This document shows positions 33,381 through 52,218 of a DNA stretch of 64,000 nucleotides, in pieces. Numbering within the stretch: position 1 is the first letter of the stretch; each line of letters opens with the position of its first letter. The DNA is from Brachyspira suanatina (GTDB lineage Bacteria > Spirochaetota > Brachyspiria > Brachyspirales > Brachyspiraceae): contig NZ_CVLB01000001.1 of assembly GCF_001049755.1 (NCBI RefSeq), forward strand, positions 2,126,995-2,190,994, written 5' to 3'. Position numbers and translations under genes: made by a program. The notes under the pieces are model-generated. The model saw nothing but the letters and a program-made list of their open reading frames with translations, searched no databases and was not told the DNA's origin.

Positions 33381-35501
33381 TTAAATATATTTAACATCTA
33401 ATTTTACTTTATATTTAACTTTTTCTCCGGCTTTTAATGATATATTCTTGCAGCATACTATAGTAGAATTTTGATAATTCATTTCAAGTTTATCAACAGC
33501 ATCAGATATAGTAAAGTTAGGCATATATAAGAATACTGTTTCTTCGCTAGCTTCCATTAATACTTTTATTTTTATATATGAATCATCAGCCATACCGAAA
33601 ACTGTACCTTTATATTCTCCGCAGTCTGATAAATTATTAGAAACTTTTTCATTGCCTCCTATATAGTATCTGTCTGGTTCCTGACCTGCAAGCAATGTTA
33701 TATTATTTTCTAAAGCATATACAAATTGAATATCTTCATTAGATTTATTTTCTATAATAGATTCAACAGAAAATTTTCCGTCATTGCCTACTATATATCT
33801 TTTTATTAAATATATATCCTTATCATTAACCTTTGAAGTTTTTTCAAAAGATACTGTAGCATAATCTTTATTGATAAGATTTTCTAATACATCATAATGA
33901 ATGTTATAAAAATCTGCATTTTCTTCATATTTCAACAATTGGAATTCTTCAGCAGTAGGCATTTTATTTAAGAAGTGGTCAACACCAAATACTTTTTCAT
34001 TTTTATCGAATACCAAATATTTAGCAATCTTATCATCAACTTTTTTTGCTATTTCATGTATTGATACATGTTCATTATCTTCCTGCTTATTATTAGAATT
34101 TCTTACAGCAGCTATATGATAAGCCTCTTCTCTTCTTCTAAGACAGTCTATTAAATTGGTAGGGTTTCCTTTTTTCAAATCCCATTCTATTATAGATCCG
34201 CTTAAAGTATGGAAAACTAATCCGGCATTTTCACAGGAAATCATAATCTCCTCTCTGCCGTCCATATCAAAATCTAAACTATGACTTAAGAAATATTTTC
34301 TTCCATAAACTTTTTCTAAAGATATAGAAGTAGCTTTAATTAAATTAGCATAAGTAGCATGCCTTAAATTATTTAAATAAAGTCCGCCGAATGTACCATG
34401 CCAATAAGGACAATTACACTGACCTTTTAATAAATAGCTCAAAGCCTCTTCTTTTTCTTTATAATTAGATTCAGTAATCTCTCCTATCATATTTGAAGTA
34501 AATATCATTCTTTTATTCATTCTGTTGCTTTCAGAATATTTACTGAAATAATTTCTCCAGAAACCGCCTCTCATAAATCTGCTTATAATCTCATTATCTT
34601 CAGATTTTTTTAGTTCTTCCTGTTTTGAATGGAATTCATCCTGTACCTTAGCAGGTAAAACCCAAGTAAGCATTTCTTCATAAGAGCCTGTAGGTATATA
34701 AATTCTTGATATAGGAGGATGCTTCTCCATATATTCGCTGTATGTAGTAGTAATAATAGTATCTTTTTCTTTTGTGAGGGCATCAAAAAACTTTTCAAGC
34801 CATTTATCTTCATAAACCCATTTTTGAGTGCCAGGCCAATCTCCGTATTTTTCTCCGTCATCATGAAGAACTACAACTCTGTCGCCTTCTTCTGTAGCTA
34901 TTGATTTTAAATATTCAATAGACTTTTCAACATCTCTAAATGGTATTAAATAACGAAGTTCCTGAGATATTGGAAATATATTTAATTTATAATTTTCATT
35001 ATCAGTTATAAAATAACCGAACATATTTTTAGTATCTACACCTGTAGTTAAAAACTGAGAATCATCGAGCATTATATATTTGATGCCATTCATAGCTAAA
35101 TTCTTAACTAATGTAGGCTCCCAAACTCTCTCTGCAATCCAAGCACCTTGAGGAGTAATATTAAAATTCTTTTCTATATATGAATTTAATTTTTTTATTT
35201 GTATATCTTTATCTTTATCCGGTATTGAAGGCATTATGGGTTCATAAAAACCGCCGCTTTGCATTTCTATTCTTTTTTCTTCTGCAAGTTTTTTCAAGGC
35301 TTGAATATGTTCTGGGTGATTCTTTTCAAGCCATTCTAATAAACAGCCTGTATAATGGAAATTAAATTTTATATCTTTATATTTTTCTAATATGTCTAAA
35401 AAAGGCTTATAAGCATTTTTATATGTATTTTCAAATACAAAGTCAAAATTGCCAACCGGCTGATGATTATGGTTACCCAATATTAAATTAATAGTTTTCA
35501 T
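33381..35501 (-). CDS. GH57 alpha-amylase / 4-alpha-glucanotransferase
   Basis: 706 residues. GH57 enzymes cleave or transfer alpha-1,4-glucans by a retaining mechanism. The N-terminus LILGNHNHQPVGNFDFVF is the family's first motif. The nucleophile Glu124 is in WIAERVWEP and the acid Asp214 in VVLHDDGEKYGDWPGT; both lie at almost the same positions as in the Thermococcus litoralis glucanotransferase. The middle and C-terminal beta domains (about 300-706) match the DUF1925/DUF1926 parts of that enzyme. There is no signal peptide, so it is cytoplasmic, likely acting on stored glucan or maltodextrin. Downstream in the same direction are a BioD-like gene, GH4 and the PTS. Confidence 0.93.
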   Translation of the reverse strand: MKTINLILGNHNHQPVGNFDFVFENTYKNAYKPFLDILEKYKDIKFNFHYTGCLLEWLEKNHPEHIQALKKLAEEKRIEMQSGGFYEPIMPSIPDKDKDIQIKKLNSYIEKNFNITPQGAWIAERVWEPTLVKNLAMNGIKYIMLDDSQFLTTGVDTKNMFGYFITDNENYKLNIFPISQELRYLIPFRDVEKSIEYLKSIATEEGDRVVVLHDDGEKYGDWPGTQKWVYEDKWLEKFFDALTKEKDTIITTTYSEYMEKHPPISRIYIPTGSYEEMLTWVLPAKVQDEFHSKQEELKKSEDNEIISRFMRGGFWRNYFSKYSESNRMNKRMIFTSNMIGEITESNYKEKEEALSYLLKGQCNCPYWHGTFGGLYLNNLRHATYANLIKATSISLEKVYGRKYFLSHSLDFDMDGREEIMISCENAGLVFHTLSGSIIEWDLKKGNPTNLIDCLRRREEAYHIAAVRNSNNKQEDNEHVSIHEIAKKVDDKIAKYLVFDKNEKVFGVDHFLNKMPTAEEFQLLKYEENADFYNIHYDVLENLINKDYATVSFEKTSKVNDKDIYLIKRYIVGNDGKFSVESIIENKSNEDIQFVYALENNITLLAGQEPDRYYIGGNEKVSNNLSDCGEYKGTVFGMADDSYIKIKVLMEASEETVFLYMPNFTISDAVDKLEMNYQNSTIVCCKNISLKAGEKVKYKVKLDVKYI

Positions 35502-35737
35502 GATAATGCCCTGTTTTATTGAAATTTATTACTTATAATTTCGTAATAATAGAAAAATTAATTAACATAATTCTATAATAAATAAGGCTTTTTGTAAAGT
35601 GCCTATTTATGTATAGTATTACTTTAAGCAGTATTGACTTTTTGATTTTTTTATTTATCATGTTCGATTATCAAAAAAACTGATTTTTTAAAAATGACGT
35701 TTTTATGATAAAATTTTATTTTAAGGACTTTTGTTTT

Positions 35738-48636: not shown

Positions 48637-49509
48637 ATGACCTTTACAGATTTAATTATGACTTTAAATAAATATTGGAGCGAAAACGGATGTATAATAC
48701 AGCAAGGATATGATCTAGAGGTAGGTGCCGGAACATTTAACCCAGCAACAGCATTAAGAGCATTAGGCCCAGAACCTTTCAGCGTAGCTTATGTAGAACC
48801 TTCAAGAAGACCAACTGACGGAAGATACGGAGAAAATCCTAACAGACTTCAGCATTATTATCAATACCAAGTTATAATGAAACCATCTCCAGAAAATATT
48901 CAGGATTTATATATACAAAGTTTGGAAGCATTAGGAATAAGCTTTAAAGATCATGACATAAGATTCGTTCATGATGACTGGGAATCCCCTACTCTTGGAG
49001 CTTGGGGCCTAGGTTGGGAAGTTTGGCTTGACGGTATGGAAATAACTCAATTTACATATTTCCAAGCTGTAGGAGGAATCAATTTAAAGCCTATAACAGG
49101 TGAGATTACCTACGGACTTGAAAGAATATGTATGTATTTACAAAATATAGATAATGTTTATGATTTGGAATGGGGACATGGCATAAAATACGGAGATGTA
49201 CATTTACAAGGTGAAAAAGAATTCTCTAAATATAATTTTGAAGTTGCTGATACAGATATGTATTTCAGACATTTCAAAGAATATGAAGAAGAATGCGATA
49301 GATGTTTAGCTAATGGCTGCGTACTTCCTGCTTATGATATGGTTATGAAAAGTTCGCATGTATTCAATATGCTTGATGCTAGAAATGCTATAAGTGTAAC
49401 AGAAAGAGCCGGATATATAGCAAGAGTAAGAGAGCTAATGAAAAAAGTTTCAGCTGCTTATATAGAATCAAGAGAAAAATTAGGTTATCCATTAATAAAA
49501 AATAAGTAA
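48637..49509 (+). CDS. glyQ: Glycyl-tRNA synthetase alpha subunit
   Basis: The catalytic subunit of the bacterial alpha2-beta2 glycyl-tRNA synthetase. The 290 residues are highly conserved: [95 protein letters not shown] and [26 protein letters not shown]. The beta subunit gene glyS normally sits next to glyQ. Here the next 460 bases contain only a repeat, a terminator and a promoter, then the encapsulin locus, so glyS must be elsewhere. GGAG lies upstream of the ATG. Confidence 0.97.
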
Positions 49510-49589
49510 GTTATTTATTTAAAAATTATTATTTATTATTATAATATATTACTAAAGACTATATATTAATTGTTTTATTAAGTTTTTAA

Positions 49590-49649
49590 AGCGATAAACG
49601 AGCAGCTGATAACTTTAGTTGTCAGCTATTTGTGAGCGAGTTTATCGCT
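49590..49649. repeat. Structured dispersed repeat, copy 3 (short form)
   Basis: Outer stem AGCGATAAAC (49590-49599) with GTTTATCGCT (49640-49649), enclosing one hairpin AGCTGATAACTTTAGTTGTCAGCT (49604-49627) in the opposite orientation to copies 1 and 2. The flanking GCTAGCAATAATAAAAAATT also matches them. Confidence 0.88.
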
Positions 49650-49668
49650 AGCAATAATAAAAAATTTT

Positions 49669-49890: not shown

Positions 49891-49918
49891 TTGACATTAT
49901 TTTTTTATCATGTATAAT
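49891..49918 (+). promoter_or_regulatory. Promoter of the encapsulin operon
   Basis: TTGACA (49891-49896), a 16-base spacer and TATAAT (49913-49918) preceded by TG. A 12-base palindrome TTATTATAATAA ends just before the -35 box, and a partly palindromic stretch ATTATTAGTAATTAATACTA follows the -10. Either could be an operator for an iron or peroxide regulator; that is speculative. Confidence 0.8.
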
Positions 49919-49972
49919 ATTATTAGTAATTAATACTATTAAGTAATTATTTTAAATAAGGAGACTAATATT

Positions 49973-50323
49973 ATGCCTAGTTTTGCAAATCCATTTAATG
50001 CAAATGTGAACAGAAAAGTTACTAAAGAAGAATTAATACAAGCTGTAAGACTTGATATTGCCGGAGAATTGGAGGCTATATATTTATACGATGCCCATGT
50101 TATGGCTACAGATGACCCTGTTGCAAAGGCAGTATTAGCTGACATAAGAGATGAAGAAAAAGCACATGTCGGAGAGCTTATGGCTTTACTTAGACATTTA
50201 GACCCTAAAGAAGCAGAACATTTTGAATCTGGACAATTAGAGGTTAAAGAGATGATGGAAGAGCTTGGAATAAAAGAACCTAATCTATCAGGGCTTACAG
50301 TTGGAAGTTTGAAAAAAGACTGA
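49973..50323 (+). CDS. Encapsulated ferritin-like protein (EncFtn), encapsulin cargo
   Basis: 116 residues. EncFtn is an annular ferritin-like ferroxidase that oxidises Fe(II) inside encapsulin shells. The half-ferritin helices contain ELEAIYLYD (Glu32, Glu34) and DEEKAH (Glu62, His65), which coincide in number and spacing with the iron ligands of the Rhodospirillum rubrum protein. Gly31 and Leu38 replace the Glu and Trp I recall there. The C-terminal tail ends in LTVGSLKKD, a classical encapsulin targeting peptide. AAGGAG lies 8 bases before the ATG. The shell gene begins 33 bases downstream, so the two form one operon. Confidence 0.95.
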   Translation: MPSFANPFNANVNRKVTKEELIQAVRLDIAGELEAIYLYDAHVMATDDPVAKAVLADIRDEEKAHVGELMALLRHLDPKEAEHFESGQLEVKEMMEELGIKEPNLSGLTVGSLKKD

Positions 50324-50356
50324 TAAAGCGATAATAAAACATTAAAGGAGGAATAT

Positions 50357-51166
50357 ATGGATTATTTAGCTAGAGAAAGTTCGCCTTTTGAAGAAAGTTT
50401 TTGGCAAAATATAGATAAAGTTGTTGTTGAAACAGCGAGCAGAACACTTATAGGAAGAAGATTTTTATCTATTTACGGACCTCTTGGTGCAGGTGCTATA
50501 AGCGTTCAATATGATAAAAGCGACAGAGAAGAAGTTTTTGAAGATGGATTCGTAAAAACTTCAGGAAGAAAATCTGTTGAGCTTCCTCAGATTTATCAGG
50601 ATTTTACTCTATTATGGAGAGATTTGGAAAATAATATTTCAAATAAACTTCCTTTAGATTTATCTATTGTATCTCAGGCAGCTCAAACACTCGCTAACAA
50701 AGAAGATAATTTAATATTCAATGGAAATGATTTCCTAGAATTAAAAGGTATACTCAATGCTGAAGGAGTACAAAAATTAAAAATCTCTGATTGGGGACAA
50801 GGCGAGAACCCTTATACTGATATAGTAAAAGCTATAAATATGATTAGAGAAAAAGGCATTGTAGGAAGATTCGTACTATGTTTGAGCCAATCATTATATT
50901 TTGATTTACAGAGAATACAGCAAGGCACTGGAATGACAGAAGCTCAAAGAATATCTAGTATGATTGGAAATCTTTATAATGTACCTGTTATAAAAGGAAA
51001 GAAAGCTGCATTGATTTGTTCAGAGCCTCAATATATGGATTTGGCTGTTGGAATAGATATGTCTACTGCATATTTAGAACAAAAAGATTTAAATCACAGC
51101 TTTAGAATAATGGAAACTATTATACCTAGAATAAAAGATTCTAATGCAATAGTTGTTTTAGAATAG
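50357..51166 (+). CDS. Encapsulin shell protein, family 1
   Basis: 269 residues with the HK97-like fold of encapsulin nanocompartments. The N-terminus is typical: DYLARESSPFEESFWQNIDKVVVETA, then SRTLIGRRFLSIYGPLGAG, the E-loop region with GRKSVELPQIYQDFTLLWRDLE, IVSQAAQTLANKEDNLIFNG and the C-terminal MSTAYLEQKDLNHSFRIMETIIPRIKDSNAIVVLE. The N-terminal helix and P-domain form the cargo-binding groove. Together with EncFtn upstream it should build an iron-storage compartment that also guards against peroxide damage. AAAGGAGG precedes the ATG. A bidirectional terminator ends the operon. Confidence 0.96.
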   Translation: MDYLARESSPFEESFWQNIDKVVVETASRTLIGRRFLSIYGPLGAGAISVQYDKSDREEVFEDGFVKTSGRKSVELPQIYQDFTLLWRDLENNISNKLPLDLSIVSQAAQTLANKEDNLIFNGNDFLELKGILNAEGVQKLKISDWGQGENPYTDIVKAINMIREKGIVGRFVLCLSQSLYFDLQRIQQGTGMTEAQRISSMIGNLYNVPVIKGKKAALICSEPQYMDLAVGIDMSTAYLEQKDLNHSFRIMETIIPRIKDSNAIVVLE

Positions 51167-51198
51167 TTTAATTTCATAATAACTCTTTAAAAAATTAT

Positions 51199-51230
51199 AA
51201 GCCTGCAGATAACATAAAATCTGCAGGTTT
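51199..51230. terminator. Bidirectional terminator after the encapsulin operon
   Basis: CCTGCAGAT (51202-51210) pairs with ATCTGCAGG (51219-51227), with T-rich sides. Shared with the convergent DUF2157 gene. Confidence 0.88.
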
Positions 51231-51231
51231 A

Positions 51232-52218
51232 TTATTTGTATTTTATTATTCTCTCTATTATCACTCCTATTAATATAGTTGATAATCCCAAAATAATAAA
51301 AAATATCCAAGTATTCATTCTTGAATAGAAATATTCAAAATATCTTATATACATATTTAGAATAACAAAAAATATTGAGTATCTTACTATAGAAGATATC
51401 TTTAACTTATATCCTATTATAAGTGCAATGATATCTGAAATCAAAAATATAGAACTATATATTATGATTTCTTTATTAGCAAAATGTTCAAGAATTATTG
51501 GATAATCATAACTCCCAAATATTGACATTATTGCAAGTATTATGTTTACATATAATATTCCAACTGTATAATATATTACTGAAAAATTAGAATATCTTTC
51601 TCCTAACTTTTTATTGATATCAGTTATTCCTATTAAAAACATTAATATGCTTGTCATAATAAATCTTATATAATTATTAAGTGTTAAATCAATTCCAGAT
51701 ATATCGAAACCTTCAAAACCATACCAAGTTATCAAACCTATTATTGCAATAGATAATACCGCATAATTTCTCTTTATATATGCTATTATAAAAAACAATA
51801 TTATGCTTATAAGAGATAGTAAAATAAAATTATCTTTGTTATGAGTTATAATGTACGATAAAGTAAAAATAAATGCTGATAAAAATATAGAAGAAATAGC
51901 TATTATTGCAGAAGAAGTTTTAGGTAAATATATATCTTTTCTTTTAAGTATTTCATCAATTATAAACCCTGATAAAAAAAGTAAAGCAAATAAAAATGCT
52001 ATAAAATAAAGGGAAAAAATATAGAAACTTATAAAAGCTATAAATCCAATTGATACCATTACAATACCTGTTATCATTATAGCTTTTATAATAGGCTGCC
52101 AATCTATATAATCATCTATATATCTTTTGGATAATGTTTCAAACTGTTCATCAGTTATAATATTATCTTTATTCCACTTTTTTAATTCTTTAAGTAAAAA
52201 TCTGTTTTTGCTTCCCAT
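51232..52218 (-). CDS. DUF2157 multi-helix membrane protein
   Basis: 328 residues. A soluble N-terminal segment of about 40 residues (LLKELKKWNKDNIITDEQFETLSKRYIDD) has the pattern of DUF2157, followed by about nine or ten hydrophobic helices and a short basic tail. Members of the family are membrane proteins of unknown role. The gene starts 5 bases after the 106-residue gene upstream, so they are probably translated from one mRNA. Confidence 0.85.
   Translation of the reverse strand: MGSKNRFLLKELKKWNKDNIITDEQFETLSKRYIDDYIDWQPIIKAIMITGIVMVSIGFIAFISFYIFSLYFIAFLFALLFLSGFIIDEILKRKDIYLPKTSSAIIAISSIFLSAFIFTLSYIITHNKDNFILLSLISIILFFIIAYIKRNYAVLSIAIIGLITWYGFEGFDISGIDLTLNNYIRFIMTSILMFLIGITDINKKLGERYSNFSVIYYTVGILYVNIILAIMSIFGSYDYPIILEHFANKEIIIYSSIFLISDIIALIIGYKLKISSIVRYSIFFVILNMYIRYFEYFYSRMNTWIFFIILGLSTILIGVIIERIIKYK

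Follow-up and report, generated by a model that had tools for sequence, protein, structure and literature searches.

An EncFtn-encapsulin operon of Brachyspira with a candidate PerR-type operator common to catalase and superoxide dismutase promoters

Gene content and signals of the locus

The DNA analysed here is a 64-kb stretch (hereafter the window) from a Brachyspira genome of 3.26 Mb in 34 contigs. It carries a two-gene operon in which the gene for an encapsulated ferritin (EncFtn) precedes that for a family 1 encapsulin shell protein (Table 1). The promoter is the sole site within 3 kb that matches the consensus at all 12 positions, and its -35 element is kept as TTGACA or TTGACT across Brachyspira species. 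EncFtn ends in LTVGSLKKD. Tails of the TVGSL type are kept in its relatives, and the consensus for encapsulin targeting peptides is L/F-x-V/I-x-x-L/I (PMC11202242). Terminator-like sites number three, compared with 0.7 +/- 1.0 in shuffles. At Rfam thresholds, no known RNA element was found in the leader or the operon. A shell gene adjoins EncFtn in 97 of 100 loci, which are not all independent, as several come from one and the same genome. A sequence-only reading of this DNA had described a two-gene operon with a near-perfect promoter, a targeting peptide and a strong terminator in a host-associated spirochaete, and all of these features are present.

Table 1 Features of the EncFtn-encapsulin operon, numbered from the first base of the window
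Feature	Coordinates	Strand	Remark
Sigma-70-type promoter TTGACA-16-TATAAT	49891..49918	+	12/12 match
Candidate PerR/Fur-family operator TTATTAGTAATTAATACTATTAA, 23 bp, directly 3' of the -10	49920..49942	+	
Encapsulated ferritin (EncFtn, EncB_fam), 116 aa, ending in ...LSGLTVGSLKKD	49973..50323	+	
C-terminal shell-targeting peptide SGLTVGSL, inside the EncFtn gene	50288..50311	+	From sequence
Family 1 encapsulin shell protein, 269 aa	50357..51166	+	
Intrinsic terminator, hairpin, 14-pair stem	51197..51232	+	Minus strand also reads terminator-like

Upstream lies glyQ (48637-49509), the gene for the glycyl-tRNA synthetase alpha subunit; the beta-subunit gene is not adjacent. The neighbourhood downstream of glyQ varies among Brachyspira species. 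Between glyQ and encFtn there is a strong imperfect hairpin (49588-49652; -29.1 kcal/mol, z -5.35). It is present in only a few near-identical genomes, and about 55 bp are missing at the same place in a close relative (G008, L201). The hairpin may be a small mobile or REP-like element.

The shell protein

The shell protein, of the HK97 fold, scores 272 bits against the encap_f1 profile NF041155 (cut-off 100) and also matches PF04454. Based on sequence, its nearest relatives are the shells of M. xanthus (EncA), D. quercicolus, B. methanolicus and Q. thermotolerans, at 175-155 bits, compared with at most 66 bits for T=1 shells such as that of T. maritima. Based on profiles, the EncA-type group scores 289-242 bits versus 111, and M. 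xanthus EncA is closest. The predicted structure (pLDDT 89.3) has a TM score of 0.91 to M. xanthus EncA and of about 0.8 to the T. maritima shell. The M. xanthus shell is of T=3 and the Q. thermotolerans shell of T=4 architecture (PMC11202242, PMC7762939). Because sequence, profile and fold all group our protein with the EncA and Q. thermotolerans shells, a large shell, of T=3 or T=4 type, is likely. Without cargo, M. xanthus EncA can also assemble as T=1 shells.

EncFtn and its metal-binding residues

EncFtn scores 167.5 bits against the EncB_fam profile NF058679 (cut-off 90) and lies above the cut-off of PF22277 (EncFtn-like). Its score against TIGR04535, the R. rubrum-type profile, is 106.9 bits and falls below the cut-off of 125. 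The closest solved relatives are 5n5e (9.6e-18) and 7s8t (2.2e-17). In an AlphaFold monomer model (pLDDT 81.7), the protein is predicted to form two long antiparallel helices (18-45 and 49-76), a short third helix (78-97) and a disordered tail with SGLTVGSLKKD, as expected of the EncFtn fold. The model is best matched by the EncFtn domain of the P. furiosus fusion protein (5n5e), followed by M. xanthus EncC. With R. rubrum EncFtn (5da5) the protein has the diiron residues and the fold in common, at an identity of at most 38% in the structural alignment.

The numbering of our protein coincides with that of R. rubrum EncFtn, and the R. rubrum-type residues Glu31 (of the EXXE entry site), Trp38, His57 and Glu64 are replaced by Gly, Leu, Asp and Ala. 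The sequence-only reading had assigned Gly31, Glu32, Glu34, Leu38, Glu62 and His65 correctly, and had read Gly31 and Leu38 as unusual iron-entry residues. The residues are present as it placed them, with the qualification that Glu34 is part of the proposed entry site and not a ferroxidase ligand (PMC5012862). The claim that they are unusual is not supported: the outcome named beforehand as refuting it, an alignment in which Gly31 and Leu38 are common, was largely what we observed. Among 144 distinct EncFtn sequences, a sample centred on the subfamily of our protein and drawn in part with peptide patterns that include GELEA, Glu32, Tyr39, Glu61, Glu62 and His65 are invariant, and position 34 is Glu in 139 and Asp in five. 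Position 31 is Gly in 86, Ala in 49 (135 of 144 together), Glu in seven and another residue in two. At position 38, Leu occurs in 107 sequences, Val in 14, Ile in 11, Trp in seven and other residues in five. Glu31 and Trp38 go together: the same seven proteins, R. rubrum EncFtn among them, carry both.

As this tally leans towards the subfamily of our protein, the counts were also split by source. Gly or Ala occupies position 31 in 16 of 21 profile-sampled Clostridia, and Ala does so in 29 of 29 sequences from the genomes of one phylum (a set centred on L041). The structurally characterised EncFtn of P. furiosus and EncC of M. xanthus both have Ala31 and Leu38; the exact Gly31 was not found in any characterised EncFtn enzyme. 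According to a 2024 review, Glu31 is not conserved (PMC11202242). Judged from the 144 sequences, the characterised Ala31/Leu38 proteins and the review, Gly31/Leu38 is the normal state of the subfamily and no anomaly.

These data bear on the possibility that the protein is set apart by its loss of Glu31 and Trp38, with altered iron-uptake kinetics as the result. The side chain of Gly31 cannot coordinate metal, and in R. rubrum EncFtn both E31A and E34A raise ferroxidase activity (PMC11202242), so absolute kinetics may differ from those of the R. rubrum enzyme. Nevertheless, Glu31/Trp38 is the minority state (7/144) and the whole subfamily, including the P. furiosus and M. xanthus proteins, does without it, which leaves nothing special about the Brachyspira protein and makes such a change most improbable. 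On the tally and its split by source, we rejected the idea that altered iron entry sets this protein apart. Among the sequences sampled, it is the textbook reference, the R. rubrum set of entry-site residues, that represents the minority.

The same review contrasts a bacterial HxxxEExEH motif with DxxxEExA/T-H plus Glu68 in archaeal fusion proteins (PMC11202242). Our protein follows the archaeal version (Asp57, Glu61, Glu62, Ala64, His65 and Glu68). Asp57 is present in 131 and Glu68 in 136 of the 144 sequences, nearly all of which are bacterial. Thus, the Asp57/Ala64/Glu68 outer-site pattern described for archaeal fusions is also widespread among stand-alone EncFtn proteins of bacteria.

The P. 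furiosus fusion (5n5e, 2e0z) also has in common with our protein Ala/Gly31, Glu32, Leu38, Asp57, Glu62, Ala64, His65 and Glu68 and the motif EEKAHVGE, and its ferritin-like part likewise lies upstream of the shell part. In Brachyspira this cargo-then-shell order is split into two genes, with the targeting peptide on the cargo, Glu34 instead of Asp34, a bacterial host and a shell nearer to the M. xanthus type. In the M. xanthus system (EncA with EncB and EncC; 7s20, 7s8t), EncC likewise has an LTVGSL-type peptide, but His57, Glu64 and Leu68 stand in place of Asp57, Ala64 and Glu68, and Brachyspira differs further in having a single cargo gene that adjoins the shell gene.

Distribution and origin

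Of 26 Brachyspira genomes, 20 encode both EncFtn and the shell, five encode neither and one retains just a truncated shell gene, which possibly sits at a contig edge. Among further members of the Brachyspiraceae, two genomes are without both genes and one has both. The EncFtn of the nearest named homologue, from B. hampsonii, is identical. In a tree of shell proteins, those of the Brachyspiraceae make up a single, well-supported clade next to Deferribacterota, inside a mainly clostridial tree, and Treponema EncFtn-encapsulin pairs group apart from them. Given this single clade, recent gene transfer into Brachyspira is unsupported. A phage or plasmid origin was also rejected: there were no plasmid matches and one phage match, which was weak.

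A candidate operator shared with catalase and superoxide dismutase promoters

When the regions upstream of encFtn are aligned across Brachyspira, a palindrome right after the -10 element is kept while its flanks diverge. The sequence-only reading had overlooked this element, through which the operon is connected with the catalase and superoxide dismutase genes. The core TAGTAAT-T-AATACTA forms an inverted repeat of the 7-1-7 type, as Fur-family operators generally do. TTATTAGTAATTAATACTATTAA has one match in the 64-kb window at up to three mismatches, compared with 0.02 expected from shuffles. A single pattern search across the genome, again with up to three mismatches, gave six matches, versus one for the reversed-pattern control and about one expected by chance (scaled from the window shuffles). 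The encFtn site matches without mismatch. The second match lies in the promoter of a superoxide dismutase-rubrerythrin operon, and the third 11 bp before the start codon of catalase, with ferrochelatase divergent. The remaining three flank genes that we read by eye as chemotaxis-type, transporter-type and RND-type, and may be chance.

We trained a weight matrix on the encFtn sites alone and used it to score the promoters of sod and catalase in other genomes. As a benchmark we took its maximum over the other positions of the window (127,838). This maximum was exceeded in 23/23 Brachyspira catalase promoters and in 15 of the 18 sod promoters. In the catalase promoters the box directly follows the -10 element, the same place as in encFtn. 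In the sod promoters it is upstream of the -35 element, so its action at sod may differ. With the matrix, no box was found in the promoters of the genome's two ferritins or in the catalase promoters of three sister-genus genomes, and no clear box in the promoter of the perR gene itself. Nor was the box found in the encFtn promoters of two Brachyspira genomes, G005 and G021 (L014 and L020), or in those of the sister genus (L030, L116).

Four side observations concern the genes and sites searched. G005 and G021 are also without a detectable catalase gene. In another genome (G012, L255) the catalase match consists of two overlapping pieces near the C-terminal end, with a TGA inside the larger, which reflects a frame interruption or an assembly error. 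The second-best matrix match in the window (35516-35538; 17.6 versus 25.4 for encFtn) lies just upstream of the minus-strand gene 33381-35501. Ferritins other than the encapsulin cargo occur in Brachyspira genomes (L208-L211, L266, L267), and the genome of the window has two strong PF00210 genes.

If the iron store were constitutive, the palindrome would be there by chance or have no bearing on the operon. This would fit the near-perfect promoter, the AT-rich genome, which favours AT palindromes, and the lack of the box upstream of encFtn in two Brachyspira genomes. Yet so few matches are expected in the window, the box is kept across species amid diverging flanks, and it recurs independently at the sod and catalase promoters, which together render constitutive expression very unlikely.

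The clostridial, Deferribacterota and Treponema pairs have an EncFtn 65-85% identical to ours beside a shell gene. Unlike in Brachyspira, PerR-like box enrichment was not found upstream of them. General PerR control of clostridial encFtn was rejected, as no box enrichment comparable to that in Brachyspira was found upstream of the clostridial genes. The control would therefore be lineage-specific.

The Fur-family regulator

The genome has one Fur-family gene, encoded outside the operon. Among solved structures, its 128-aa product is nearest to B. subtilis PerR, and in an ungapped alignment the PerR ligands His37, Asp85, His91, His93 and Asp104 correspond to H23, D71, H77, H79 and D90. The four structural Cys are also kept. 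The best NCBIfam PerR equivalog model scores 102.8 bits, below its cut-off of 180, for which reason we call the protein PerR-like and base its identity on the residues and the nearest structure. Read in this way, it is most likely a PerR-type peroxide sensor.

The box could instead be the site of an iron-sensing Fur, with the operon, sod and catalase responding to iron status. The 7-1-7 repeat is generic for the family, the catalase sites carry a TGATAAT half-site, and a single Fur-family protein could fill both roles. We nonetheless consider this unlikely: the regulator has Asp at the position (104) where Asp marks PerR and Glu marks Fur (PMC4866751), the co-targets are peroxide and superoxide genes, and the two ordinary ferritins are without the box. 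Physiologically, it would also make little sense to switch off an iron store at times of plentiful iron.

The B. subtilis PerR regulon has the same operator form and the same sensor ligands, and catalase is among its targets. The Brachyspira half-sites are TAGTAAT and TGATAAT, compared with the B. subtilis consensus TTATAAT, and the candidate targets in Brachyspira include encapsulin, sod and rubrerythrin.

Discussion

We regard it as quite likely that the operon specifies an EncFtn-encapsulin iron store of the ordinary kind and that it is under peroxide control of the PerR type. EncFtn, translated just upstream of the shell protein, would fold as a two-helix ferritin-like subunit, with its C-terminal LTVGSL peptide directing it into the shell. 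The assembled subunits would form a diiron site from Glu32, Glu62, His65 and Tyr39, with predicted ferroxidase activity; it would oxidise Fe(II), and the resulting mineral would be stored inside the shell.

The operon would be repressed by the metal-bound PerR-type protein through the 23-bp palindrome, which overlaps the transcription start. Oxidation of the regulator's metal site by H2O2 would release the palindrome. Synthesis of the iron store would then coincide with that of catalase, superoxide dismutase and rubrerythrin, and Fenton-active iron would be removed. From the shared operator and the single PerR-like protein we infer the further steps, namely binding, the direction of regulation and the response to peroxide. 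The encapsulin store probably belongs directly to the PerR regulon, expressed along with catalase, superoxide dismutase and rubrerythrin and apart from the two ferritins.

The EncFtn-encapsulin store is known in kind; what is new, at the level of sequence, is the candidate operator common to the catalase and sod promoters. The regulation of encapsulin iron stores is little described. Our literature search covered open-access papers. Only two of these name both encapsulin and PerR, and the relevant passages of one draw no link between them; the three that name Brachyspira and PerR appear to concern other subjects, as far as their titles and abstracts tell.

If PerR-type control holds, the encapsulin would be a peroxide-induced iron-sequestering defence and not a general iron reserve. 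Through the shared, conserved operator, an encapsulin is connected in a testable way with peroxide defence, here in a gut-dwelling anaerobic spirochaete with two ferritins besides.
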